Shown: one piece after another, positions 2,971-15,807 of the stretch
Position numbering within the stretch: position 1 is the stretch's first letter
How the letters are laid out: every line of letters starts with the position of its first letter
NCBI RefSeq assembly: GCF_007115095.1
Contig: NZ_SULH01000008.1
Location: 62,001 to 126,000, forward strand
DNA length: 64,000 nucleotides
DNA from: Levilactobacillus enshiensis
GTDB taxonomy: Bacteria; Bacillota; Bacilli; Lactobacillales; Lactobacillaceae
Reading direction: 5' to 3'
Position numbers and translations under genes: made by a program
The notes under the pieces: generated by a model
Databases searched by the model: none
What the model saw: only the letters and a program-made list of their open reading frames with translations
What the model was told of the DNA's origin: nothing

Positions 2971-3031
2971 GTTAATTCAAAATAAAAAGCGCATCCCCTC
3001 CCGCCAAGAAGTAAGATACGCAAATATAATC

Positions 3032-3047
3032 TAAGGAGAGTACAGGA
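3032..3047. repeat. Prophage 1 left attachment core (attL)
   Basis: This 16-base sequence exactly matches 15261-15276, which includes the last bases of tRNA-Ser. Direct repetition of a tRNA 3' end on the far side of a phage region is the usual footprint of tyrosine recombinase integration. Confidence 0.8.
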
Positions 3048-3318
3048 ATTCAAGTCGATTTGGAATCACTTGATACCACAGCATTCCAACCAACATAAAT
3101 TCAAAAGTGCACCATTTGTGCACCACCTAGGCGGGTGAATTACATAATACAAGGATAACCATACCTTTTTCATGTTTCTTCTCTTATAGTGTCACCCAGC
3201 CCCTGTTAAAATTTAGTTTTTCTTCTAACATTGCTTTTTAAATTTACCACATAGTCTGCAACTATTATTTGGCGAACCTTAAGTGTATACTTTAGATATC
3301 ATGAATGGAGGAATACAG
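3048..3318. promoter_or_regulatory. attL phage arm with two GTGCACC repeats
   Basis: No gene is seen between the attachment core and the secreted protein gene. GTGCACC occurs at 3107-3113 and 3118-3124, 11 bases or about one helical turn apart. The same heptamer recurs in the opposite phage arm at 15033-15161. This arrangement fits integrase arm-type binding sites. A TATACT box at 3286-3291 could be the -10 of the next gene. Confidence 0.5.
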
Positions 3319-3714
3319 ATGAAAATGAATAAGTTTCTACTCATTTTAAGCCTACCAATCTTAGGAGTCGGATTAACTAATCCACTTACAATCGCTTCTG
3401 CTTCAAGTTGGAAAAAAGGAACACCTAAAGTTTTAAGAGGTGGCTATTGGACGTCATCAACCCATGTAGAACATCCGGTAGAATTTTCAGCCAAAAAAAA
3501 ATCTTTCTTCGTTGGAGAAAGTGGCATGCCAACAACTATGGTCTCTCATTCGCATTATAAGTATTCAAAAGGTGCTTACTTTCTAAAGGGGTATGCAAAA
3601 CCAGCTGGAACCTTTAAGGGTGGGAATGTCATATACAAAATTGTTAAAAAAGGTCATTATCTGAATCTAAAATGTGTTAAAGGCTCCTATGAAAAAGGAA
3701 CATTATACAGGTAA
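3319..3714 (+). CDS. Secreted small protein of prophage 1
   Basis: The 131-aa product has a Lys start, a hydrophobic core and a likely signal peptidase I site after IASASA, so it is probably exported. The mature part of about 100 residues is Lys, Gly and Tyr rich (GGYWTSSTHVEHPVEF, VKKGHYLNLKCVKGSYEKGT) and looks like a small beta-strand protein of a kind common in lactobacilli. The ATG at 3319 has a GGAGG site; a GTG at 3283 would add 12 residues and spoil the signal. It is the only plus-strand gene in the prophage, placed between attL and the endolysin, a usual spot for lysogenic conversion genes. Function unknown. Confidence 0.65.
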   Translation: MKMNKFLLILSLPILGVGLTNPLTIASASSWKKGTPKVLRGGYWTSSTHVEHPVEFSAKKKSFFVGESGMPTTMVSHSHYKYSKGAYFLKGYAKPAGTFKGGNVIYKIVKKGHYLNLKCVKGSYEKGTLYR

Positions 3715-3767
3715 AAATGAAACTAACTCATTAAAGTTTACTAGTTACATATATTTTATATTCGATA

Positions 3768-3800
3768 GAAAAAACCACCCTACCCAATCGGATAGAGTGG
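3768..3800 (-). terminator. Terminator of the prophage 1 lysis operon
   Basis: CCACCCTA at 3775-3782 and TAGAGTGG at 3793-3800 pair with one wobble, and the minus strand continues into six Ts. Prophage 2 has a similar hairpin after its endolysin. Confidence 0.7.
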
Positions 3801-3808
3801 CTTCACTG

Positions 3809-4570
3809 CTACTTAAGTTTCTTCACGTAATCGGTGTTACTCGTGATATATAGCCCATTCCCTAGCTTCAGCCGTGTAATCTTCCCATAGCTGACTACGC
3901 TAGCAATGTCAAAGACAGTCCCCGAATTAAAAGTCAGTTCTTTTTTCTTGAACTCTTTGTCGTGGTACCGTGTCACATTAGTCTTAGCCTTAACTTGCTT
4001 GGCTGCCTTCAAATAGGTGGCCTTTTTTGCTGGCGTGGATGAACTCCCACCGACACCAGTCTTTAGGTCCTTAGCAAATTGAGACTTGCTGATACCCCAC
4101 TTAGCTAAATACCCATAAGGATCCTGATGATTTCCCCACAAGTTATCAGACACCCATTTGTGAGTCTTAATTCCATTGCCGGAACCATCTAAAGTCAGTG
4201 GAATACTGTACTTGCTTGCGTAATATCGAATCACCCAGATGTATCGTTTGTAGCTTTCATTAAACCGTTTCTGGCTATCTACATGAGCTAACTCCACTTG
4301 GAATGGACTGCGTTCGTTAGCGGGTGAACCAGCACCGTAAGCGATGTACCCTGGTGTCCCCACAATATAAATACCTTGGTCGTCCACAATCGCATGAGTG
4401 TACGCATTCTGCCAGTGGCCACACATGTAACTGGCTTCACGCTTCCCTGAGTCTACACCTTTATTACTATCATTCCCTGTGTCGTGAGCAGTAATATATT
4501 GGGGCGATGTCTTTCGATTGTCACCCGCATTGGCTGCCAATTCATAACTATGATTCAAACTATATCCCAT
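3809..4570 (-). CDS. Phage endolysin, N-acetylmuramoyl-L-alanine amidase
   Basis: This lysin should cut the amide bond between MurNAc and L-Ala at the end of the phage cycle. Residues about 20-165 form an Amidase_2-like domain with the strand YITAHDTGNDS (His29), AYTHAIVDDQG (His59) and NHQDPYGY (His148, Asp150); the first and last groups are likely zinc or catalytic positions. Residues 185-253 form an SH3-like DUF5776-type wall-binding end finishing in TSNTDYVKKLK. The start overlaps the holin stop as TAATG, a coupled pair. The prophage 2 enzyme has the same length and about 80% of the same residues by eye. Confidence 0.9.
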   Translation of the reverse strand: MGYSLNHSYELAANAGDNRKTSPQYITAHDTGNDSNKGVDSGKREASYMCGHWQNAYTHAIVDDQGIYIVGTPGYIAYGAGSPANERSPFQVELAHVDSQKRFNESYKRYIWVIRYYASKYSIPLTLDGSGNGIKTHKWVSDNLWGNHQDPYGYLAKWGISKSQFAKDLKTGVGGSSSTPAKKATYLKAAKQVKAKTNVTRYHDKEFKKKELTFNSGTVFDIASVVSYGKITRLKLGNGLYITSNTDYVKKLK

Positions 4571-4863
4571 TATTTGCCATCCCCTTTAACCTGAAATCCC
4601 TTGAATCCATCAAACAGACCGGACGTAAAGCCACCTACTAGAAGCCCCATAACGGCTCCCGACAGATAGTTATGGTCAGCCGTCACAAGTACCGACAGCA
4701 GGCCAACTACTACTCCAATCGCCATCGATAGCCATGGCATCCATTGGTTAGGCACCTTTGTCTGCTTCACTGCTTGTGTCAAAACAAAAACGACTAAAGT
4801 GGTCAATGCCAGTTCAGTCGCCGTTCCTAAATTGAGTTGCTGGATATAATCCATGCTACTCAC
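4570..4863 (-). CDS. Phage holin
   Basis: The 97-aa protein has three hydrophobic segments (near residues 15-32, 42-60 and 66-85) and a charged C-terminal tail ending KGFQVKGDGK, typical of holins that hold the membrane and then open it to release or activate the endolysin. It directly precedes the endolysin with overlapping stop and start. Its start overlaps the end of the next upstream gene by eight bases. It differs from the holin of prophage 2, so only the endolysin, not the holin, is shared. Confidence 0.8.
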   Translation of the reverse strand: MSSMDYIQQLNLGTATELALTTLVVFVLTQAVKQTKVPNQWMPWLSMAIGVVVGLLSVLVTADHNYLSGAVMGLLVGGFTSGLFDGFKGFQVKGDGK

Positions 4864-5044
4864 CTCGCTTCTTCAATTTTTCGTTCTCTCGCTTTAATCG
4901 GTCATTCTCACGTTTCAATCGCTTAATCTCATCATTTTTAGTTGGCGGCTTTCCGGCGTTAATCCGAGCCACCCACACTGGCACATAGCCGACCGCAATA
5001 GCAGAGATTGCAGAGAGAATGGCCGTAAATACCTTGTCGCTCAA
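4856..5044 (-). CDS. Small membrane protein with coiled coil, lysis module
   Basis: The 62-aa product has one transmembrane segment (about residues 7-28) and then a highly charged heptad-like tail (EIKRLKRENDRLKRENEKL) that should form a coiled coil in the cytoplasm. Such proteins often sit before holins in Lactobacillus phages, but their role is not settled; holin partner or antiholin are possible. It overlaps the holin start by eight bases, so translation is probably coupled. Confidence 0.7.
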   Translation of the reverse strand: MSDKVFTAILSAISAIAVGYVPVWVARINAGKPPTKNDEIKRLKRENDRLKRENEKLKKRGE

Positions 5045-5046
5045 CT

Positions 5047-5442
5047 TTAATCATCCCCTGTAAAAGCGTAACTGATAATCCGACAAATCACCCCACCAGT
5101 CAAAACAGCACCCGGACTAATCAGAGTTCCCATTTCCATGTCGTGAACCAAGAATCCCAAAAAGAAACTCATCCACACAAAGACTAGGCACCCAATCATA
5201 ATTGGCCGGGCGTAGAACCAGTGGAAGTCCCAGATTGAATAAACCATCGCAAACGTCCCGATAACTGCAATTAGAAAAATCGATACCGGATCATCTAGAA
5301 CGCCCAGCATGGTATGTGCTGGCGGTTTCAAGTCAAAAAAGTTAACTTGAATGATGAAAACAATCGCAATGGCGTACGTCTCAACGGCGGACCAGAACCA
5401 GAACTGATTCTTTTTGTAATGATCGTACAGTTTGCTATCCAT
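5047..5442 (-). CDS. Phage membrane protein of unknown function
   Basis: From the ATG at 5442, which has an AGAGGTG site, the product is 131 aa. A longer frame upstream overlaps XkdX and is not needed. It starts MDSKLYDHYKKNQFWFW and has four hydrophobic segments, ending in a short acidic tail (FTGDD). It lies between XkdX and the lysis genes, all on one strand with spacings of a few bases. I do not recognise a family; a membrane role during lysis is only inferred from position. Confidence 0.65.
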   Translation of the reverse strand: MDSKLYDHYKKNQFWFWSAVETYAIAIVFIIQVNFFDLKPPAHTMLGVLDDPVSIFLIAVIGTFAMVYSIWDFHWFYARPIMIGCLVFVWMSFFLGFLVHDMEMGTLISPGAVLTGGVICRIISYAFTGDD

Positions 5443-5455
5443 ATTAAAAGCACCT

Positions 5456-5611
5456 CTACTTCCCTGTCTCGTCAGTAGCCGGTGCTTTGTATGCAGTGCC
5501 TGTAATTGTTTTGTATTGCTTGTCGTCAATAAAATCATTCTCCCGGTACCAGTCAATTGTCGGTGTTAGTTTACCCCAACTGTAGAACATCTTGATTAAT
5601 GTGTAATTCAT
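5456..5611 (-). CDS. XkdX-family small phage protein
   Basis: The 51-aa product begins MNYTLIKMFYSWGKLTP and continues with W21-Y-R and a K-x-Y-K-T-I-T-G segment. It fits the XkdX pattern: a short helical protein encoded just after tail fibre genes in many Gram-positive phages. A GGAGAAAG site precedes the ATG at 5611. Prophage 2 carries a counterpart at 46825-47022. Its biochemical role is not known. Confidence 0.75.
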   Translation of the reverse strand: MNYTLIKMFYSWGKLTPTIDWYRENDFIDDKQYKTITGTAYKAPATDETGK

Positions 5612-5623
5612 GATTACTTTCTC

Positions 5624-6013
5624 CTATTCTGTTGATGTGGTATTGGCCACCATAAACTGTGAAAACTGTCCGCCAAGCTCACTCGTAGCTGTCTTAACAC
5701 TATCTAAATCAACGGCGGCTACTGCTTGGGCACCGCCTAGCTGGGCCGCGATATCCTTTAAGCTTTCAATGGTCTCAGCCTGCTTATCAACTAGTCCAGT
5801 CAGATAATCGATATCCAAACTGGGAAGATTGCCAGGCGCTTCAACACGGCCATTGTCCATTAATCGGTACATCCACCAGTAACGGGTGAAATACTGCACC
5901 GAAGTAGCCGAAATATCAACAGCTACCAATCCTTCAGCAGATTCTAGTGCTGGTAAAGTGTCTTTATAAGGAAATTCAGTTTTTGAATCTGGCTTTACAT
6001 AGTAAGTTGCCAT
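5624..6013 (-). CDS. Phage tail accessory protein
   Basis: The 129-aa product has a beta-rich N-terminus (MATYYVKPDSKTEFPYKDT), a WWMYRLMDNG stretch and a C-terminal half of helices with many Ala, Asp and Gln. Small proteins of this form are encoded between fibre genes and xkdX in lactic acid bacteria phages and are thought to be fibre partners. An AAGGAG site precedes the ATG. It is 12 bases before the XkdX start. Family not identified with certainty. Confidence 0.6.
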   Translation of the reverse strand: MATYYVKPDSKTEFPYKDTLPALESAEGLVAVDISATSVQYFTRYWWMYRLMDNGRVEAPGNLPSLDIDYLTGLVDKQAETIESLKDIAAQLGGAQAVAAVDLDSVKTATSELGGQFSQFMVANTTSTE

Positions 6014-6025
6014 TATTTTTTCTCC

Positions 6026-6370
6026 TTAACCTTGTGTGTACGTGCAATTAAAAATAACAATTCCCTCTGTTGTCCACCCGTTAGGTGCAGACCCACGTAC
6101 GATAATTTGTGAATTACTTAAATCAAGACTAGCCGACAATGCATAGTCACCACTGGTAAGTCCTTTTATCATGTTAGATTTTACAATCCAGTTTTTACCC
6201 TGCAGTTCTGCTGGTAAATCTGCAACTTTAAGAGCGCTATCTACATTGCCATAGTTTCCACCAATATCAGCATATCCACTAAGATACAAAATTCCGTTGA
6301 CCAAACGATAAAAAGTTGTTGCATTGCTATTTACTACTAGCTTCCAAGACGCAGCTTCAAGGCTTTTCAA
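6026..6370 (-). pseudogene. C-terminal remnant of a tail or receptor-binding protein
   Basis: The frame starts at a TTG with no ribosome site of its own, and just upstream reads F-T-D-D-D-L-K after a stop codon, so this is the tail end of a longer gene. The surviving 114 residues are beta-rich (RLVNGILYLSGYADIGG, SQIIVRGSAPNGW) and end at VIFNCTYTQG, as in jelly-roll C-terminal domains of phage adhesins. The 5' part was removed by the deletion that also truncated the baseplate J fragment; the two frames overlap by 14 bases around the junction. Confidence 0.65.
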
Positions 6371-7412
6371 ATCGTCGTCGGTAAACCGTCAAAGAATAGC
6401 CCCGCCCAGTCTTCTGATTCACATCGTCCCAAGCTTTTCGGCGTAGGTCGAAATAGGACTCAATTCCAGCTAAAATTTGTGGCTTAACTGCCGCCAACGT
6501 TGTAATCGTTGCCGTTGACACAGTCGTTTCAATTGCAATCTTTACCTCTGTGGGAGCAACCACCGTAACTGCATGACCGATTGTCACTAGGCCGTAACCC
6601 TGTTCTTCAGCGTCTACCGGGTCGATAGCCTCTTTGACCTGACTCAACAATTCCGGGCTCGCAGCACGCAAATCATTATCCACAATGACTAGCTTGACCG
6701 TGCTACCACCACGCCAAGTTGGGTAAATCTGACCGGCACCCACAGACTCAATCTTACTAAGCATGTCGAGATAGTCCGCAATGTTCCCGCCATACGCGTT
6801 GTAGGCGTCCGGAGAGAGAATCCGGTCCCGTAAGTGATCATCAGTCTCATCATCCTTAGCTGGCACAGCCACCGAAGTAATCTCAGCCCAACTCAACGCG
6901 TCATTCGGCGTAACTGGGAGAATCTGGCCTTGGTAGCCATTTGGCCGGGTGCCGGTCTCATCAGCTACCAACAGTGCAGTCAGGTCCGTGTTAACTTCTT
7001 TGACGTGATAGAAGATTGGTTCTTCCCCGACACTCGCAAACTGGTCACCAACAGCTTTCGGCATCTTTTCGTCAAGGTTGAATTGCTTGGTGATATTGGC
7101 GATAGAGATAACCATATTGGATTCATCAACATCAGATGGGTCAACCAACGTACTCCAGTACCGTTCGTTCTTCAATTCATAAGATTGCCAGGCGTTAGAG
7201 TAATTTGCATTAGGTTGAGTAATCGTCCGTCGTGCACGGTCCCGACGCCCTTCATCAATACTTAAAACTGGTACCTTGATATGCTTAGCGCCATCGAATT
7301 TGACAACACTGTTAGATGGAGAGTTCCACAGATTGGCTGAGAATAAATGCCCATCGTAAAATGCTTGCTGAACCGCTTGTTGATAAGCGTCAGCGTAGTT
7401 AACTGTTGCCAT
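6357..7412 (-). pseudogene. In-frame fusion: major capsid N-terminus to baseplate J-like protein
   Basis: Residues 1 to about 117 (MATVNYADAYQQAVQQAFYD, IKVPVLSIDEGRRDRARRT, ITKQFNLDEKMP) read like the N-terminal arm of a phage major capsid protein. From about residue 120 the sequence changes to a baseplate J-like protein (VADETGTRPNGYQGQILPV, DDETDDHLRDR, GRGYSLTVYR). The scaffold gene lies directly upstream, as expected for a capsid gene, and tail genes lie downstream. A large deletion of capsid, connector and tail genes therefore kept the frame. The C-terminus is also cut off (RRRFEKP then stop). A 351-aa hybrid could be made, but no function is expected. Confidence 0.85.
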
Positions 7413-7431
7413 AAATTATTCCTTCTTCCTT

Positions 7432-7983
7432 TTATTTAAATGCATCAACTAAAGTTTGAACTTGGTTATTATCGTCAGAACCATTGCCACCCTTAGGTTC
7501 ATAGCCACCTTTAGACCCTTCATCAAACAAATATCCGTCAGACTTACGAAGTGTACCGAGCTGGTCGTCTAACCCTTCCAGCTTGCCTTCATCAGTGAGT
7601 TTGACCTTATCCATATCAAGTAATCCTTCCACAGCCTTAGGGTTACGAACCTTGGCACCAGTCAGCGCTGTGGTCAGCGCGCCATTCAACTTGGTTTGGC
7701 TTAGCTGATTGGTTAGAGTCTCGGTGTCAGTCTTGTATTTATCCTGAAGGTCGGTTAACTGCTTAGATAAGCCTTCATTGTCACCAGCGTCCTTCTTGAG
7801 TGACTTGATGTCCTTATCACGGTCGGCAATCTGGGCCTTCAATGATTCTGTCTCTTGCTTAAGTGAATCAATATCACTACTTGACTGTGCTTTAGCATTA
7901 TTGATATCAGCCCCGTTCAACGACAATACTGACTTAATCTGGTCCTCGTTCAACCCAATTCCTTCTAGTGCTTCTCGTTTCAT
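7432..7983 (-). CDS. Phage scaffold (GP20-like minor structural protein)
   Basis: The 183-aa product is mainly coiled coil (repeated SLKQETESLKAQIADRD type heptads up to residue 100) with a Gly/Asn/Asp-rich end, the usual form of GP20-type scaffold proteins that guide capsid assembly. The ATG at 7983 has GAGAGG at good spacing; another ATG nine bases earlier sits right on that site. It lies immediately before the capsid fragment, matching the standard scaffold-capsid order. With the capsid gene deleted it has lost its partner. Confidence 0.8.
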   Translation of the reverse strand: MKREALEGIGLNEDQIKSVLSLNGADINNAKAQSSSDIDSLKQETESLKAQIADRDKDIKSLKKDAGDNEGLSKQLTDLQDKYKTDTETLTNQLSQTKLNGALTTALTGAKVRNPKAVEGLLDMDKVKLTDEGKLEGLDDQLGTLRKSDGYLFDEGSKGGYEPKGGNGSDDNNQVQTLVDAFK

Positions 7984-8077
7984 TTCAAACATCCTCTCTC
8001 GCTAGATTTACGTGGTGCGACCACAAATCAAGGTAAAACAAAAAGCAGTTTTACGTCATGCTGGGGACAAAATGGGT

Positions 8078-8110
8078 ATAAAAATAGCACTCAACATTTT
8101 GTCGGGTGCT
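8078..8110 (-). terminator. Terminator after the MuF/candidate immunity pair
   Basis: On the minus strand AGCACCC and GAGTGCT pair with one wobble and are followed by ATTTTTAT. It starts four bases after the stop of the 69-aa gene, which is unusual inside a phage head operon. Confidence 0.65.
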
Positions 8111-8113
8111 AGG

Positions 8114-8323
8114 CTACTTAGCTAAACTATTTATATATTCTGCTTCAGTCATTGAATCAACATAATCTGAATACCAATCTAATTCCTCAGCACTCAACTC
8201 ATCAATCCACTTAGGATATTTGCCACTGTCATCTTCAAATTCAAAGCTAGGAAAATCAGTTAATTTAGTTTTATGATGCATATCTAGTATCCATCGTTTT
8301 CTATCCTCACTAATCATGTTCAA
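8114..8323 (-). CDS. Small acidic protein, candidate immunity protein
   Basis: The 69-aa product is very acidic (EFEDDSG, DELSAEELDWYSDYVDS) with several Trp, Tyr and Asp, a composition common among immunity proteins that cover a toxin's active site. Its start overlaps the stop of the MuF-JAB gene by four bases (ATGA), so the two are translated together, and a terminator follows directly. Homology to a named immunity family is not visible to me. The alternative is a plain head accessory protein. Confidence 0.55.
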   Translation of the reverse strand: MNMISEDRKRWILDMHHKTKLTDFPSFEFEDDSGKYPKWIDELSAEELDWYSDYVDSMTEAEYINSLAK

Positions 8324-9939
8324 TCCCCTACCTTTCCAAATTTGAATTTATATTTATCAGAGAATTCAGTTAAAGCTATCTCTTGACTCTTGGTTTCATT
8401 ATACCCTAATTTGATATTCTTTTTAACCAAATTGTTGTACCTAGTATTAGCATTAACAGGCATCTTTATTCCTGGTTTCGTATACCAATAAACGCTCCCA
8501 TCGTATCCAATCGTTAATCCTAAACCAACTGTGCCTTCCTTTGATTTCAACGATAAAGTGGCAATATCACTTAGCGATGGCGGAAAACCCGATGGATGGT
8601 TGTGAATGGAAACATATTGTCCATTTCGTCCATCCTTGAAAGCCTGTTTGACTTGGCCGTTGTACACAACACCTTTAGTTTTTCTTGCTTGGTTAGACAC
8701 AGCAATTGTTCTTCCAGTCTCACCATCTAGCAAGTAGTAATCTTCAAACGGTGTCCCATTACGATGTTGAAGCATATGTCTAGCAACTGTTGCCACTGAA
8801 TCGCTTATGGCTGCCGTTCTAGGGCTTCGCTTTAGTTTATCTGCAAAGGCTTGACTGCGAACATAATTCAGGTTAGCCCCATATTCACCAGAGCTGGAAG
8901 CCATTTCACGTTCACGAATGACCATCCGCTTCCATTCGTTGAACTTAATGTCCTTGATCATCTTGTCTTTGCCAGTCTCAGGGTCCCGTGACCAACGTTC
9001 AGTAACACCGGGTAAGTCTTTAATATAAGGAACCGTCGTACAGCGACACCGCGCATGAATCAGTGGGTAGTTGATACCAACAATTCGCTTATCCGTTCTG
9101 AATATCTGACCATCTAAGCGCCCACAAGTGTCACAGGTATGGCTTTCGAGCGTAGCCATATACTCATATTGTTCAATTTCGTTTTCTTCGTAACTCTGAA
9201 AAGCTGCTTCTTCAGCAACATGTCCCATTTCAGAAACCACTAATCGATGAATATCATTTCGCTTAACATCCTGAAAACGAGCATGAAACATTTGAGTGAC
9301 CTTCTGTGGGCTCCAGCCAAACACCGTACCACGAAGAACAGTGTCCATTAGGTAACTCGGAAGTTCTTGTTGGTAGTCCTTCCAGATTCGCTTAGAGAAG
9401 TCCTTGCCATCTTCCCCCCATGGTTGAGAAGTAGCTATCAATAACTGTGCCTCGTTAAAGTGAGCGAAATTCGCGGTAAAGGCACCCTTTTGAGCTTGAA
9501 TGTTGTAGGTGGTCCGCATGTATGTGTCGTCATACTGGTCAGCTAACGCCTCACGCATAACCTCGGTACGATGATTGGCAAACGACTGCGTTAGTTGTCG
9601 CAATTGTTGTTCCAAGTCTTGTAATCGAGCAACTCGGCTGCGGAAATACTCGGCATCCAGCTGGTCTTGGTATCCACCAGACTTGGCTCGTTCCTCAAAT
9701 TGCTTGAGAGTGAGTTGCCAATGCTTGGTGTTAATACCAGCCATAGCTTTCTTGGCTTCTTCTTTGTCGATACCCTTGGTGTTGGCATACCGGACGTACC
9801 ACTTTTCCATCTCAGCATGTAGCTCACGGTATAAGCCATTAAGCTCTGGTTGAAGCGCCTTTTCATAGGCCTCAGCATTCTTAATTTCTTTGGCTTTAGT
9901 TTGAAGGTGGCGCCGTTCCCAGTAACTAAGCTTCGTCAT
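8320..9939 (-). CDS. MuF-type minor head protein with JAB/RadC-like C-terminal domain
   Basis: The 539-aa product has a helical N-terminus, then a MuF head morphogenesis core ending in the Cys/His cluster Cys269-x2-Cys272, His295, Cys298-x-Cys300. After residue about 365 comes an extra domain with SIHNHPSGFPPSLSD (His446, His448, Asp458), the metal-binding pattern of JAB/RadC-type proteins. MuF proteins with variable C-terminal toxin domains are known in temperate phages; this fits that design. The ATG at 9939 overlaps the portal gene end. The downstream 69-aa gene may protect the host. The toxin role is inferred; a capsid-linked enzyme is another possibility. Confidence 0.8.
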   Translation of the reverse strand: MTKLSYWERRHLQTKAKEIKNAEAYEKALQPELNGLYRELHAEMEKWYVRYANTKGIDKEEAKKAMAGINTKHWQLTLKQFEERAKSGGYQDQLDAEYFRSRVARLQDLEQQLRQLTQSFANHRTEVMREALADQYDDTYMRTTYNIQAQKGAFTANFAHFNEAQLLIATSQPWGEDGKDFSKRIWKDYQQELPSYLMDTVLRGTVFGWSPQKVTQMFHARFQDVKRNDIHRLVVSEMGHVAEEAAFQSYEENEIEQYEYMATLESHTCDTCGRLDGQIFRTDKRIVGINYPLIHARCRCTTVPYIKDLPGVTERWSRDPETGKDKMIKDIKFNEWKRMVIREREMASSSGEYGANLNYVRSQAFADKLKRSPRTAAISDSVATVARHMLQHRNGTPFEDYYLLDGETGRTIAVSNQARKTKGVVYNGQVKQAFKDGRNGQYVSIHNHPSGFPPSLSDIATLSLKSKEGTVGLGLTIGYDGSVYWYTKPGIKMPVNANTRYNNLVKKNIKLGYNETKSQEIALTEFSDKYKFKFGKVGD

Positions 9940-11332
9940 CGTCCTCACCGCCTACATTATCGAGAGCGTCGGGATTATCGTAGCCATCATGCTTAACGAT
10001 ATCGTCTTGCCGGTCTTGGAGTTCCTGCTGTGGATCATCCACAATCGGATTAGCCTTGGCAATGGCTTCGTCACTAGTGTATTGAGCAAGCTGTGCCACA
10101 ATCTGTGCTTGTTCCAAGTCGTTCTGGATAGCCGTTCGTGTCCAAGTCTGATTAATCTTCCGACTATCAGCATCAGATACTTTAAGCCACGTTAGAATGG
10201 CCCGGACTAACTCCGTGAGAGCGTCTCTAAAGTATGATTCAGTAATAGACGCCTTCAACTCTAAATGACCATAGAGCGCTCGAATCGCCGTCCCTGAAGC
10301 ATTGCCAATCTCTTTGAAGTCCACGGGGTCAATCCCTTGTGCTTCAACAAATAGGTCTGACTTGGTGACTTCCAGCAGCGCATTGCGGGCTTCCACAGGA
10401 ATATCAATGGTCAGCTTATCAACGCCTGACTTATCACCGGTACCTACACTGTCCATCTTAATAGCATGGTCTTCTTTGAGTGCTTTCATGAAGTCAGAGA
10501 GTGACTCACCACCGTAGTTAGTAAGCACTAGGATAACTTGTTGGATGTCATCAACATCGTTCACAAAGCCGTTGTACACATTGTCGTAAACGTCAATCAG
10601 ACCTTTATACTTCAGCAATTCTGGACGTTGATACTTGTTTTTAGGGAAAGCGATAAAGGGAATCCGACCCATGCTATGAGTCAATACAGCACCGGTGCCA
10701 GTCTCATCCCCACTCGTCACATCATAGAGAGTGAAGCGATCATCATACAGAGACAGGTCGCTGTAGTCATTGGCTTCGGACTTAAACACGGTCACGTCCT
10801 TGTCGGTCCAATATTCATGAACCTTAAAGTACTTACCTGTCTTGGGGTCAAGTTGCTTGTAACTGCGTCGTAGGGCCAATAGCTTGCGGTCTAAATCGCT
10901 GGAGTAGATTGGCACTACTTGATCAGGCGGCACGATACCATAACGGAACTGGTCACTTTCATCAATCCAGTAGTGCAACCAAGCTACTCCGGCGTTGGAG
11001 GCATCCACTACCATTTGGTTAAGACGGAGATTGAAGTTGTCTCCTAGTGTGTCTTTAATCTCATCGTTGAGCGTGTCATTCTCCACATCAATAGTTGGTG
11101 GCACAGTAGCCACATAACCAGCCTCCTGGTCCACTAATAGTTGGTGAAAGTTGCTCGATACGCGATTATCGGCCCGTCGTAACGGCTCGTCTTTGCCAGC
11201 TTCATTCAACTTAGACTCGCCGTTGTTACGATTAGTGATGTCGTTCTTATTAAAGTAATAGTGAAGGGACTTGTCGAACTGATTGGCAAACTTAACTCGC
11301 CGGCCGTCGGTGTTCTTTAGTAGCTTCTTCAT
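9926..11332 (-). CDS. Phage portal protein, SPP1 gp6-like
   Basis: The 468-aa product should form the ring at the capsid vertex through which DNA enters and leaves. Matching the SPP1/gp6 family are RRADNRVSSNFHQLLVDQE near the N-terminus, the ALRRSYKQLD and VHEYWTDKDV strands, the VYDNVYNGFVNDVDDIQQ clip/stem region and a long acidic C-terminal helix. The ATG at 11332 is chosen over a TTG at 11347 inside the terminase gene end. It is between terminase and MuF, the standard order. It appears intact. Confidence 0.9.
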   Translation of the reverse strand: MKKLLKNTDGRRVKFANQFDKSLHYYFNKNDITNRNNGESKLNEAGKDEPLRRADNRVSSNFHQLLVDQEAGYVATVPPTIDVENDTLNDEIKDTLGDNFNLRLNQMVVDASNAGVAWLHYWIDESDQFRYGIVPPDQVVPIYSSDLDRKLLALRRSYKQLDPKTGKYFKVHEYWTDKDVTVFKSEANDYSDLSLYDDRFTLYDVTSGDETGTGAVLTHSMGRIPFIAFPKNKYQRPELLKYKGLIDVYDNVYNGFVNDVDDIQQVILVLTNYGGESLSDFMKALKEDHAIKMDSVGTGDKSGVDKLTIDIPVEARNALLEVTKSDLFVEAQGIDPVDFKEIGNASGTAIRALYGHLELKASITESYFRDALTELVRAILTWLKVSDADSRKINQTWTRTAIQNDLEQAQIVAQLAQYTSDEAIAKANPIVDDPQQELQDRQDDIVKHDGYDNPDALDNVGGEDDDEA

Positions 11333-11337
11333 TGTCT

Positions 11338-12591
11338 CTACTTCCAAGGTCTGAAACCTCCCTTCTTCATAAGTGATTCGAGTTCATATCTAGTCTTATC
11401 AATTGAGTGATCGTTGCCATCAGGGTAGCCAGCTTTGAAGTTGCCGTTAGGGTCACGGGCCAACTCATAGCTGGTAAACTCGCGAGCTGTGTTTGGACAC
11501 CGCACAGGGTCAATCACAATCTCTCGTAAGTCTTGCAGCCACTTGAAGCCATGTTCACGGCTACCAGGTCCCTTGCGAGCACCAACAACGTTCAATCCAT
11601 AGTCCCGGAACTCAGCGATAGTCCGTGGTTCAGCAGAGTCAGCGGTGATAACCTCATTCATCGGATTAAGCTTCTTGATAGCTTCCACTGCCTCTCGGTT
11701 AGTCATACCGACTTGATAAATTTCATTAAACAGAAAAATACGGCGACGTGCTGAATCCCAGTACACATCCCCGTAGGCTAATGGATCATGGGCAAACCCA
11801 AAGTCCATGCCGTGATAGATTTTATCAAAATGTGAAATCTCTTCGTCTGTAATTTCTCGGATAGTTAAGTTGTTGAAGACCTCGGCACCCGTCCCAGTAA
11901 CCTCACCCAGATATTCGTGAGCGTAGGCCTTCGGATTGTCCTTTTTGAGCTGTTCAGCATCGGCTAAAAATTCCTTGCTAAGCCAGCTTCTTGGTACTGA
12001 CAAGTAATCACTTTCGTGTACCAAAGTGTCCTCACGGTGTCCCTCTTCTTCTCTAGCCTGGTTGACCCATGAATTGACTGAAGCTGGCGGGTTGTAGCTG
12101 TAAAAAGTCACGATATCGGAGCCACCCCGGTTAAGTGACTGGTTAATATTCCGGATTTCTTTGAATCCCTTGAAGTCGGCCACTTCTTCAAAGTGCTTAA
12201 ACTTCGTGTAACCGTGCCGGAACTTCTGTGACTTAATTTTCTCCGGCTTATCGGCCCCCTTGAACCGTATCTGCTGCCCGGTGGGGATGTAAGTTAGCTG
12301 CATAGGGCTCACTGAGTCTGACCACAGATGAGAGACGCCCAGAGTATCAATTGCCCAAAGGTATTGGTCGTAGACTGACTCACGTAGGTTAGAAGCGTAC
12401 CGTCGCATGACTACTGCATTGGCGTCCGGGTCCTTCATGACACCCAACACAATTTCGAGCGAAATAAAGGAGGACTTGGTTGACCCACGTCCTCCTGATA
12501 ACCAATAATTCGAATGTTGACGGTGCTTGATGTCTTGGTGCAGCTGGTAGAAGCTCGGTGCCATCGAATTAGCAAGGCTGATTCTAGCCAT
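11338..12591 (-). CDS. Phage terminase large subunit
   Basis: This ATPase-nuclease packages DNA into the prohead. The Walker A loop GGRGSTKSS begins at residue 33, an acidic Walker B-like stretch (FKHFEEVADF) lies near residue 135, and the nuclease domain starts at HGMDFGFAHDPLA with further Asp at ITADSAEP and DGNDHSID. This is the PBSX/Terminase_3 arrangement. Several close start codons exist; the ATG at 12591 has the best site (GGGAG). It seems intact although its small partner is interrupted. Confidence 0.9.
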   Translation of the reverse strand: MARISLANSMAPSFYQLHQDIKHRQHSNYWLSGGRGSTKSSFISLEIVLGVMKDPDANAVVMRRYASNLRESVYDQYLWAIDTLGVSHLWSDSVSPMQLTYIPTGQQIRFKGADKPEKIKSQKFRHGYTKFKHFEEVADFKGFKEIRNINQSLNRGGSDIVTFYSYNPPASVNSWVNQAREEEGHREDTLVHESDYLSVPRSWLSKEFLADAEQLKKDNPKAYAHEYLGEVTGTGAEVFNNLTIREITDEEISHFDKIYHGMDFGFAHDPLAYGDVYWDSARRRIFLFNEIYQVGMTNREAVEAIKKLNPMNEVITADSAEPRTIAEFRDYGLNVVGARKGPGSREHGFKWLQDLREIVIDPVRCPNTAREFTSYELARDPNGNFKAGYPDGNDHSIDKTRYELESLMKKGGFRPWK

Positions 12592-13018
12592 CTTCATCAC
12601 TCCCAGCGGGGATGTCGTCGGTGATTTGCATGGGACCGACTGTTGCGGTTACGTCGCGTTTCTCCGTCCACATAGCTAGACGCTTACCGAGAAGTTCAGC
12701 CGCTTTAACCCGATCCTTAGCACCAACTTCCACATCAATGTAGATTCCCTTGGCCGTAACAACCGATTCCGTCTCTTCGCCACGCATTGTAGCAGTAAGA
12801 TACTCCAGAATCTCCTACCGGTCGGCAATCTTGCCATCGGATATCTCTTTACGACGCGATTCGATATAAGTAGCAATTGCAGGTTTTTGCAGGTTCTCAG
12901 CTCCTATTGAATGGGCGCTTCGTTTCGCATAACCTGCTAGTTCAGCGGCCTGCGTTGCATTACCGCTAATAATATATTCGTCAGCAAACTTCTGCTGTTT
13001 TACTGTTAGTTTCTGCAT
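12584..13018 (-). pseudogene. Terminase small subunit interrupted by an in-frame TAG
   Basis: The first 67 residues (MQKLTVKQQKFADEYI, GNATQAAELAGYAKRSAHS) are the helix-turn-helix DNA-binding end of a Terminase_2 small subunit. At 12815-12817 the frame meets TAG, after which the same frame goes on with EILEYLTATMRGEE and KAAELLGKRLAMW, the family's usual C-terminal part. Only one codon breaks the gene, so the change is a nonsense mutation (or a base-call error). An AAGGAGG site precedes the ATG at 13018. Without read-through, DNA recognition for packaging should fail. Confidence 0.85.
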
Positions 13019-13043
13019 TTTGCAGGCCTCCTTCAATGAAAAA

Positions 13044-13472
13044 TTAATTGGTAACGAAAATAATTTTGAAAATATATATACTCTCACTAATTGCTGCTGA
13101 CAAGCAGCCAAACATAAGTGCAACGCTCATTATACTTATGTACGACTTTGCCATATCTGGGAAAACGCTAATTATAATGATTGCCAGTACAGATGTAATA
13201 AAGTATAGAAAAGTTGCAATAATTATTCTCTCCAAAAACTTCCTATCAGTACCCAGCTTACGTAACCAACCCGCACTCAATTTTGGGACAAATGCTAGTG
13301 CTGCCATGAATATGGCCGTAGCCAAACTAGAGAAGGAAACTACATTTGAAATAGAATCCTGATAGTTTGGCATCTTACTTGGTGACACTTTTAAAATCAG
13401 TATTGCGCAAAATGTTACTACGAAAATTAAAATAGAAAATTTATTTCTACGAATCCGTGCCTTTATCATCAT
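13044..13472 (-). CDS. Four-helix membrane protein, RexB-like partner candidate
   Basis: The 142-aa product has a basic start (MMIKARIRRNKF) and four hydrophobic segments (about residues 13-27, 44-62, 85-104, 113-136). It overlaps the preceding cytosolic gene by 26 bases, showing tight coupling. Size, topology and order match lambda RexB, a 144-aa four-span membrane protein that acts with cytosolic RexA in phage exclusion. I cannot show sequence homology to RexB, so this is an analogy in architecture. It is inside a prophage, where such exclusion genes are common. Confidence 0.6.
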   Translation of the reverse strand: MMIKARIRRNKFSILIFVVTFCAILILKVSPSKMPNYQDSISNVVSFSSLATAIFMAALAFVPKLSAGWLRKLGTDRKFLERIIIATFLYFITSVLAIIIISVFPDMAKSYISIMSVALMFGCLSAAISESIYIFKIIFVTN

Positions 13473-14445
13473 CCTCGTACACCTTCAATGCTATTGTTTT
13501 CTGGATGAATTCAACTTCACTTGCAAAAGCCTTAGCTAAGTAATTAAAGTTATCACGAATCGTCATTCCCACAGCTGCATCAAACTCAATGTAACCTCTA
13601 TAGTTCAATTTATTCGTAATCAAATCAAAAAGTACTTCTTGGCCGTTTTTGATTCCTTCGACTTTAATTGACTTCACGTCATCAAACTCATCCACCCCAA
13701 GTTTAGAGTCCACAAAACGCTTAATTCTGCTTTTTGTCTTCTCTTTATTTAGACTAACAGACTTCATTCTAACTTCAAACTCATCTGCTTCCAGCTCATT
13801 CGCAAGAGCTATATCTCCCATTTCTGACCTAGCATCGTCTTTCTGATCATTCGCATCCTCAGTCTTAGATACTTTGTAGTCAACAGCTGTAATAATTGTC
13901 ATATCGTCTAAATCCTTTATCCCCTTTTTATCAGGAATAAATGCTAACCTTAATCCTTGTGTATCAAATATCTGTTGTGAGAACTTCTTTAACGCCCACA
14001 AATTGACCCCTCCAGAGGTTCTCCCGGCCGCTACCACAGAATAGAATGGGTCAACTATAAACTGTGAATCAACTAGTGGACCAACTTGATTCATATCCAC
14101 ATCATCATCCGACAAATCCACGACTTCTTCTCTATCGCTAACCACTTTTGATAAGTCTCCGTATTTAATCTGCTGGGCGGAGTCAACCTTTGCAATATTA
14201 ATTGCGAAGCAATAATAATCTACTGTATCTTCTCCATAATTAATAAGCTTATTCATGGGGATTTTTTGGATTGCTGAAATATAATACCGCACATCTTCAA
14301 TCGTCAATTCATCAATGTCGTCATAACTTTTCTTAACGAATAGCTGAAAAATATGGTCTATTTTACTTTTCAAATCAAACTTGTGCTTTCCTTGTTGAAG
14401 TTCATAAAATGCAATTTGCTTTTGACGCTGAACTAAATTTGACAT
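13447..14445 (-). CDS. Cytosolic protein of a putative two-gene exclusion module (RexA-like)
   Basis: The 332-aa product has no signal or membrane segment. Features seen are an acidic patch (DLSDDDVDMNQVG), then FIVDPFYSVVAAGRTSGGVN, and a charged basic run (KEKTKSRIKRFVDSKLG), ending in acidic residues. The order of a strand-rich middle and a basic C-terminal part recalls lambda RexA; KwaB of Kiwa is another cytosolic partner of a four-span protein. The ATG at 14445 follows GGAGGAG and a TATAAT box, and a terminator isolates it from upstream transcription, so it looks like an independently expressed moron. The family is not certain. Confidence 0.6.
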   Translation of the reverse strand: MSNLVQRQKQIAFYELQQGKHKFDLKSKIDHIFQLFVKKSYDDIDELTIEDVRYYISAIQKIPMNKLINYGEDTVDYYCFAINIAKVDSAQQIKYGDLSKVVSDREEVVDLSDDDVDMNQVGPLVDSQFIVDPFYSVVAAGRTSGGVNLWALKKFSQQIFDTQGLRLAFIPDKKGIKDLDDMTIITAVDYKVSKTEDANDQKDDARSEMGDIALANELEADEFEVRMKSVSLNKEKTKSRIKRFVDSKLGVDEFDDVKSIKVEGIKNGQEVLFDLITNKLNYRGYIEFDAAVGMTIRDNFNYLAKAFASEVEFIQKTIALKVYEDDDKGTDS

Positions 14446-14470
14446 ACTATCTCCTCCAATTATCAAACAT

Positions 14471-14476
14471 ATTATA
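14471..14476 (-). promoter_or_regulatory. -10 box of the two-gene exclusion module
   Basis: On the minus strand TATAAT lies 25 bases before the start codon, just after the upstream terminator. The -35 region overlaps the hairpin and is weak. This suggests expression in the lysogen, separate from late phage genes. Confidence 0.45.
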
Positions 14477-14486
14477 TTTTAAGCAT

Positions 14487-14515
14487 AACAAAACCCCAGC
14501 ATTACTGCTAGGGTC
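14487..14515 (-). terminator. Terminator after the tRNA-like region
   Basis: On the minus strand CCCTAGCA and TGCTGGGG (14494-14513) form a tight hairpin followed by TTTTGTT. It closes whatever is transcribed from the 14560-14830 region. Confidence 0.6.
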
Positions 14516-14559
14516 AGTCTGAAGGAGATATATATTAATTATTGTAACGTCCAGTCTCA

Positions 14560-14832
14560 AAGACTAAACATAATATGACTGAAAGGATTCGAACCTTCCG
14601 CATACCGACTACAGCCATACAGATAGTGCCAAGACTTAATTCTCACCGTCGTGGTATTTCTAGCCTGTTTTGGGCCTTCTCAACTTGACATTACTCTTTA
14701 CCGTGATTTAATCACAGCAACATCGCGGGTAAGGATTTGCACCTTACAGTTTTCAGACCGAACATAGGAACCATCAAAGCCTCTTATCCCTAAATCCAGT
14801 TGCGTCTACCTATTCCGCCACCGCAATACGCA
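14560..14832 (-). other. tRNA-like sequences, probably degenerate phage tRNAs
   Basis: On the minus strand, ATTGCGG near 14827 can pair with CCGCGAT near 14723 as an acceptor stem, followed by TG and a Leu-type D arm (GCGGAATAGGTAGACGC). The T loop is TGCAAAT rather than TTCAAAT, and about 20 extra bases sit where the anticodon and variable arms should be. A second T arm (GAAGGTTCGAATCCTTT) lies near 14581-14598 without a clear 5' half. I cannot fold a normal tRNA from either. They may be decayed or unusual phage tRNAs. Confidence 0.4.
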
Positions 14833-14880
14833 ATCAAATTTAATTTATCTCAATGTTACTATAGTAATCCTTTTATTCGG

Positions 14881-15039
14881 CTATTTGTGGACACTCATTC
14901 GGCGCGTTTTGGATATGTCATTTAAAGCATCAATGCCAAACATCATGATTGAGAGATCATCAATCTCCTTCCGTTCGTCACGCCGAATTGTTTTCTCATC
15001 AACTCGATAAAAATCGGCTAAAATGTGCTTTTGGTGCAC
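14881..15039 (-). pseudogene. Short fragment with helix-turn-helix-like sequence
   Basis: A frame of about 52 codons reads LADFYRVDEKTIRRDERKEI, similar to the recognition-helix pattern of DeoR-like regulators, and ends after TRRMSVHK. It has no good ribosome site, and its 5' end overlaps a GGTGCAC arm-type repeat. It is best seen as the leftover end of a deleted phage regulatory or replication gene. Confidence 0.3.
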
Positions 15040-15161
15040 TCTGGTAATCCCTTGGTATCAAAGGGATTGACACCACTTTTCACACCCAAATGGTGCACTT
15101 TATTTTCTCCAAATAAGTAATTTTAGCGTTATTTTCGTAAAAGTGCACCAAAAAGTGCACC
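15033..15161. promoter_or_regulatory. attR phage arm with four GTGCACC repeats
   Basis: GTGCACC occurs inverted at 15033-15039 and 15092-15098, then direct at 15143-15149 and 15155-15161, each next to A/T runs. The same heptamer is found in the other arm (3107-3124). The array lies 100-230 bases from the attachment core, as integrase arm sites do. No intact gene is present between 14446 and the tRNA. Confidence 0.5.
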
Positions 15162-15260
15162 GAATTATCGTTTTACACCAATTTAAAGCGTCCTCAGCAA
15201 AACAAAAACGCCGCCAACTCAACGGTTGACGACGTTTTGGAAAGATAAAGTTCTTCAATT

Positions 15261-15276
15261 TAAGGAGAGTACAGGA
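15261..15276. repeat. Prophage 1 right attachment core (attR) in tRNA-Ser
   Basis: TAAGGAGAGTACAGGA is identical to 3032-3047 and covers the acceptor and part of the T arm of the tRNA-Ser gene, so integration leaves the tRNA whole. Confidence 0.8.
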
Positions 15277-15350
15277 TTTGAACCTGCGCGCCGGTATTAG
15301 CCGGTTCGACGGATTTCGAGTCCGTTGCATTACCACTCTGCCAACTCTCC
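15264..15350 (-). tRNA. tRNA-Ser(CGA)
   Basis: All arms pair: acceptor GGAGAGT/ACTCTCC, D stem GCA/TGC, anticodon stem ACGGA/TCCGT with loop CTCGAAA (anticodon CGA), a long class II variable arm (ACCGGCTAATACCGGC) and T stem GCAGG/CCTGT with loop TTCAAAT. CCA is not encoded. The gene decodes UCG. Its 3' end is the integration site of prophage 1. Confidence 0.95.
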
Positions 15351-15408: not shown

Positions 15409-15807
15409 TTAAATAATCCGTTGCACCAAATCTTCCGGTCGAAAGGGGTCAATCCAAATGGGCTGACTGTCCATCAACGCCAGTGGCATCATGTTTGTAC
15501 TATCCAACTTGGCCGCTAAAACTTGTTTGTCCTCTTTTCTGGCCATTAAAATTTCCCAATCCGTCCATTCTGATTGCCATGTTCCCCGACTAATGATGAT
15601 TAACAGTTGGTGCGACTGTTTGATTTCCCGATGGACTTCTCGGCGGAGTCGTCCCGACTGTCGACCGTTAAACTTAACTGGTGGCTGCTGTTCATGAAAA
15701 CTGATCGTTGGAAACTCCCATTCTTGCTGCGCCCATTTCTGGAGTTGAACCTGAAACGAACGAGCTAGCGGGTCGTTAGACTGGTAACTGATAAAAAGAT
15801 CGCTCAT
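15409..15807 (-). CDS. Stand-alone TIR-like (DUF1863/ThsB-like) protein
   Basis: The 132-aa product is a single domain. It begins MSDLFISYQSNDPLARSF, like the first strand of TIR-like DUF1863 proteins, and has the strongly matching LLIIISRGTWQSEWTDWEIL segment, then a VLAAKLD strand. In Thoeris, ThsB proteins of this family sense phage and make a cyclic ADP-ribose signal for ThsA. No ThsA-like gene is nearby, so either the effector is elsewhere or this protein has another role. It is placed beside tRNA-Ser, just outside the prophage, a common spot for defence genes. Confidence 0.7.
   Translation of the reverse strand: MSDLFISYQSNDPLARSFQVQLQKWAQQEWEFPTISFHEQQPPVKFNGRQSGRLRREVHREIKQSHQLLIIISRGTWQSEWTDWEILMARKEDKQVLAAKLDSTNMMPLALMDSQPIWIDPFRPEDLVQRII

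Follow-up and report, generated by a model that had tools for sequence, protein, structure and literature searches.

A putative divergent Rex-like gene pair carried by a defective prophage of Levilactobacillus enshiensis

An overlapping gene pair and its predicted products

We analysed a 64,000-nucleotide (nt) stretch of Levilactobacillus enshiensis DNA (contig NZ_SULH01000008.1, positions 62,001 to 126,000; hereafter the window), in which two overlapping genes, named here A and B, sit towards one end of a prophage remnant of 12 kb and probably represent an undescribed kind of Rex-like defence. A preliminary description, made from the sequence alone, had proposed two frames of 332 and 142 amino acids (aa) sharing 26 bases, and the list of open reading frames (ORFs) together with codon reading bears this out (Table 1). 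Gene A starts with an ATG at 14445, while a TTG further upstream would give a protein of 339 aa; gene B, which directly follows A, starts with an ATG at 13472 and stops at 13044. The membrane protein with four helices that had been proposed for B agrees with the four long helices predicted for it.

Table 1. Features of the gene pair and its surroundings, in window coordinates
Feature	Position	Strand	Remarks
Prophage remnant	3028..15282	.	inferred limits, from the att-like 26-nt repeat overlapping the 3' end of tRNA-Ser
Terminase small subunit remnant, downstream of B	12584..13015	minus	pieces 12815-13015 and 12584-12787, one in-frame stop between them
Gene B	13044..13472	minus	membrane protein of 142 aa with four long helices predicted (ORF list)
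A/B overlap	13447..13472	minus	26 nt; start and stop codons read
Gene A	13447..14445	minus	332-aa soluble protein, RexA-like predicted fold, phrog_11507 (ORF list)
Ribosome-binding site of A	14451..14457	minus	GGAGGAG, read from the sequence; good match
TATAAT hexamer upstream of A	14471..14476	minus	read from the sequence
Terminator-like hairpin just upstream of A	14492..14515	minus	10 pairs
Degenerate tRNA-like remnant upstream of A	14574..14618	minus	23.1 bits, under the Rfam gathering score of 29

Protein A belongs to phrog_11507, which it matches over residues 13-307 in a PHROGs profile search (expectation value, E, 2.7e-32) and to which PHROG assigns no function. The structure predicted for A shows the two-domain, RdgC-like fold of RexA, with RexA as the best structural match, and we consider it very probable, from this model, that A has a RexA-type fold. 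In predicted structure, the comparison of A with exclusion proteins came out as the preliminary description had anticipated. In PADLOC neither A nor B had a significant match, and in Pfam and NCBIfam no match of either exceeded the curated cut-offs.

Relatives in phages and in a restriction operon

The pair recurs in phages, viral contigs and bacterial genomes, where the preliminary description had proposed to look for it. The protein database holds 11 relatives each of A and B, the window's own included, and 37 with a wider A profile; those named come from Levilactobacillus brevis, Weissella confusa, Secundilactobacillus and Lactiplantibacillus. Scans of viral contigs with A profiles (5 + 8 loci) and with a B profile (13 loci) led to the identical 13 contigs, one of them the window prophage, although the scans are not fully independent, since part of the B profile came from sequences adjoining A. 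A B-like ORF followed A in 18 of the 19 loci fetched through A (L001-L011, L015-L022), some of which are the same phage from two collections; in the exception, L004, A is cut at the record end. Both genes were also found in the annotated records of Enterococcus phage EG-TP1 and Streptococcus phages Javan119 and Javan617. Because A matches phrog_11507 and both proteins recover the same 13 viral contigs, we regard the pairing as beyond chance. In whole genomes the pair is rare: counting the window's own genome in each tally, A was found in 1 of 98 relatives, and phrog_11507 in 1 of 398; of 395 genomes, the wider A profile hit 4 (one by a weak partial match) and the B profile 2. One chromosomal copy (L056, 5047-7513), in genome G796 of the window's own family, adjoins a helix-turn-helix regulator gene upstream of A, and no phage structural gene was recognised in the 10 kb listed for it.

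Nonsynonymous to synonymous substitution ratios (dN/dS) were calculated between relatives of the pair, with the window copy outside all comparisons and with saturation of the large dS values. Five of the six ratios lie well under 1, namely those of A between L055 and L098 (0.092/0.635), between L055 and L060 (0.013/0.117) and between L006 and L010 (0.41/1.98), and those of A (0.29/3.0) and B (0.16/1.59) between streptococcal phage copies; the sixth belongs to B in L055 and L060 (0.021/0.039).

The neighbourhoods of these copies bear on the possibility that the pair modulates the lysogeny switch, as proposed for lambda RexA, with exclusion being secondary. Lambda RexA biases the CI-Cro switch (PMC11077077), many copies of the pair are prophage-borne, Javan617 has a gene annotated 'immunity protein' two genes upstream of A, and the regulator gene in G796 would fit as well. 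However, of the 17 loci scanned, 10 have terminase genes downstream of the pair, the annotations of three phages show no CI-type repressor right next to it, and the pair also occurs in chromosomal restriction operons; hence, we consider a primary role in lysogeny very improbable.

Those operons come from genomes whose genus we take to be Streptococcus. In G817, a diverged overlapping pair (A of 283 aa, B of 164 aa, the latter missed by the whole-genome B profile) separates hsdS from hsdR in a type I restriction operon whose HsdM, HsdS and HsdR were confirmed by Pfam, and a search with A in 196 genomes revealed the same arrangement in G937. The gene order is hsdM-hsdS-A-B-hsdR, with tight spacing. 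An hsdR search of 197 genomes of the presumed Streptococcus genus gave some match in 99 and, besides G817, eight loci with hsdR at least 76% identical. All eight hsdS-hsdR slots were read: four (L096, L097, L098 and L099) hold A and B, and are not independent, since the last three are close relatives. The slot of L094 contains Kiwa (KwaB at 30.5 bits versus a Pfam cut-off of 26.3, KwaA at 1.2e-16), that of L092 and L093 a PDC-M39A protein beside a 349-aa protein without a match (from a scan of L092; L093 was placed with it because its printed part is nearly identical), and that of L095 PDC-M67A/B. Thus, one slot (L092-L099) takes differing modules of two genes, for a soluble and a membrane protein, and the co-occurrence with defence loci that the preliminary description had looked for is found in these operons. 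By eye, the short stretches listed for four further hsdR loci of lower identity (39-46%) showed neither an A-like nor a B-like ORF. A Fic-type gene also lies in the slot of five loci (L095-L099), recognised by Pfam in L096 and by likeness of the printed start in the others, and in L099 (25-3046) hsdR is broken by stops while the adjoining A and B are open. Upstream of hsdM in L060 (12633-13184) and in L092-L094, a gene pair of approximately 97 and 84 aa presumably resembles YefM/YoeB-type toxin-antitoxin modules.

The candidate systems of PADLOC, such as PDC, are described as unvalidated (PMC12813430), so that Kiwa is the only firm known defence in the slot. Kiwa, like the window pair, combines a soluble and a membrane protein, and its presence in L094 raises the alternative of a Kiwa-like membrane complex, in which B would sense infection at the membrane and A would be the effector, blocking phage DNA replication or late expression while the cell survives. 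The gene order is consistent with this: the preliminary description had Kiwa in reverse order, which does not hold generally, a membrane ORF following KwaB in seven of the nine Kiwa loci read from genomes of the window's own order (two of these ORFs being confirmed as KwaA). Moreover, the Kiwa system of Streptococcus thermophilus, whose genes are given in the order kwaB, kwaA, confers protection against phages (PMC11514479). A resemblance in sequence, however, was not found: A has no match to KwaB models (PF16162, PADLOC KwaB; hhalign E 0.24) and B none to PADLOC KwaA, the control KwaB and KwaA proteins being positive, and the best structural match of A is RexA. Taken together, these data make a Kiwa-like complex unlikely.

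PDC-M67 (DUF6731), another occupant of the slot, is matched by 2 of 13 A-family members, with a best E of 2.4e-5 and 24.4 bits, under the curated cut-off of 27; the window's A protein gave no DUF6731 match in Pfam, and the A profile reached E 0.17 against one PDC-M67A protein, which is not significant.

The position between hsdS and hsdR also suggests a back-up to restriction, in which A would sense DNA ends or intermediates that arise from the cutting or processing of foreign DNA, and B would arrest the cell should restriction fail. The tight spacing of the operon, in which no upstream terminator was found in the copy tested, points in this direction, as does the DNA binding reported for RexA and tested homologues in PMC11077077. 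Nevertheless, no hsd operon is among the annotated neighbours read of the phage-record and viral-contig copies, and we judge this explanation quite improbable. As a wider possibility, and a doubtful one, we speculate that Rex-like pairs, Kiwa, PDC-M39 and PDC-M67 could be interchangeable second-line cassettes, each pairing a soluble DNA-linked sensor with a small membrane protein; they would be exchanged between prophages and a single type I restriction slot and would fire if restriction failed or left DNA intermediates behind. In that case, the window pair would represent the branch carried by prophages in a Gram-positive Rex family, which was not found described in the literature or family libraries searched.

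Comparison with RexAB and the proposed mechanism

The preliminary description likened the pair to lambda RexAB (PF15969/PF15968; structure 8TWQ), and the likeness holds for gene order and adjacency, for the size of B (142 aa versus 144 aa for RexB), for the four-helix topology common to both membrane proteins, and for the two-domain RexA fold predicted for A. It does not extend to the size of A, which is larger than lambda RexA (332 versus 279 aa), and homology of B to RexB is not established. A second counterpart, likened by description, is RexABpp of Pseudomonas putida prophage P1, in which a RexA-fold protein is paired with a four-helix membrane protein lacking detectable RexB homology in a cryptic prophage (PMC12894663). 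RexABpp follows a CI-like repressor, whereas the window pair adjoins terminase sequence; its RexA homology is clear by HHpred and its activity was tested, whereas the homology of A is marginal and its function is predicted.

Several observations weigh against a Rex-like interpretation. A has no match to the RexA models PF15969 and PADLOC RexA, and 13 A-family members gave no RexA match in Pfam; B likewise has none to PF15968 and PADLOC RexB. The lambda RexA and RexB controls were positive in both libraries. In profile comparison, A reached a marginal hhalign probability of 1.6-1.7% with RexA (E 0.03; 2/100 and 0/100 shuffles equally good), far below the HHpred value of 98% given for P. putida RexA in PMC12894663. 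B aligned to the RexB profile in a similar register at E 0.08-0.19, with 3 and 5 of 100 shuffles equally good, yet 5 of 100 also against KwaA, which served as a control. The confidence of the A model is middling (predicted local distance difference test 75.6, predicted template modelling (TM) score 0.72) and its global TM-scores are 0.27-0.34, while the structural matches of B fall below the level that is meaningful for helical bundles. A is acidic, with an isoelectric point (pI) of 4.73 versus 8.61 for lambda RexA; the values of twelve A relatives span 4.83-7.67 and those of four RexA proteins 6.26-8.73. The dN/dS ratio of B between L055 and L060, approximately 0.55, comes from 12 changes. 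Finally, lambda RexAB is part of the immunity region, next to a CI-type repressor, whereas the window pair adjoins a terminase remnant, in keeping with the terminase genes seen downstream of its relatives. Given the sequence-family results and this location, we do not file the pair as a member of the RexAB family.

Nevertheless, A resembles an exclusion protein in its predicted structure and the two genes do occur together elsewhere. We are fairly confident that the pair has a role in defence, and it most likely works like RexAB. With somewhat less assurance, we postulate that the two genes constitute a divergent exclusion module of the Rex-like kind, which travels as a passenger of the prophage. 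A, with its RexA/RdgC-type two-domain fold, would be the infection sensor, probably as a clamp-like dimer that recognises phage DNA or a DNA-protein intermediate. Once triggered, A may act on B, which would render the membrane leaky, so that growth of the infected cell would stop and the infection would abort. The assignment of sensing to A and execution to B is drawn by analogy with the P. putida RexAB-type pair, the closest tested precedent found, whose RexA homologue binds DNA and, when overexpressed, triggers its four-helix partner, with leaky membranes and growth arrest (PMC12894663).

A Gram-positive family combining the RexA fold with a compact membrane partner would provide a second model for Rex-type exclusion; the activation of the lambda Rex system is still unknown (PMC12894663). 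With such a family, Rex-type exclusion would reach into lactic acid bacteria and streptococci, groups in which it escapes the family libraries used, and the occurrence both in prophages and in the restriction slot would make it testable whether Rex-like and Kiwa modules share one job beside restriction.

The prophage remnant and the signals upstream of A

The prophage is defective, as the preliminary description had it. An att-like 26-nt repeat (3028-3053 and 15257-15282, 88% identical) overlaps the 3' end of a tRNA-Ser gene (15263-15350), with a weaker third copy at 1123-1148 (73%); both pieces of the interrupted terminase small subunit match phrog_51, and a single ORF at 6357-7412 fuses the N-terminus of a major head protein to tail/baseplate sequence in a deletion-like manner. 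No integrase or replication gene was noticed among the listed ORFs of the remnant, ten of which were searched against PHROGs. The claim that the neighbouring phage genes had decayed does not hold as worded, since the frames for terminase large subunit, portal, minor head, scaffold, holin and endolysin are open in the ORF list. Because several neighbouring genes are thus open too, the open frames of A and B are by themselves no sign of selection, and the retention by selection suggested earlier is not established.

This openness would also suit ordinary late phage genes or hitchhikers without a defence role. Such an explanation has very little probability in our view, given that sources of the pair include Levilactobacillus, Weissella, Enterococcus and Streptococcus, that it also lies in restriction operons, and that a terminator-like hairpin precedes A in most of the phage copies tested. 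In the window, this hairpin (0/40 shuffles equally good, shuffling being done in blocks of two bases) would place the pair behind a terminator, as proposed. A hairpin with a T-run was found at -84 to -42 from A in 8 of 12 phage-borne upstream regions, the window included, several of the eight being near-copies of one another; equally good shuffles numbered 0/40 in four of them and 1 to 3/40 in the other four. Among the four remaining regions, L011 has none, L007 and L018 have matches only further up, in tRNA-like sequence, and L022 has a hairpin at -182. The upstream scan gave no terminator-like hairpin for two chromosomal copies of the pair. As for the -10 box ascribed to the pair, the hexamer is present, but the promoter scan upstream of A paired it with no -35 element, and an independent promoter of A and B is therefore unproven.

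The tRNA-like remnant upstream of A has counterparts in other phages, where tRNA genes lie a few hundred bases upstream of A (tRNA-Met in L006, 5458-5533; tRNA-Lys in L018, 5690-5764) and T-arm-like sequence was seen by eye in L007, L010, L016 and L020. Upstream of the tRNA-Ser gene, a 132-aa ORF on the minus strand (15409-15807) starts with MSDLFISYQSND..., which may resemble the beginning of a TIR or TIR-like domain.
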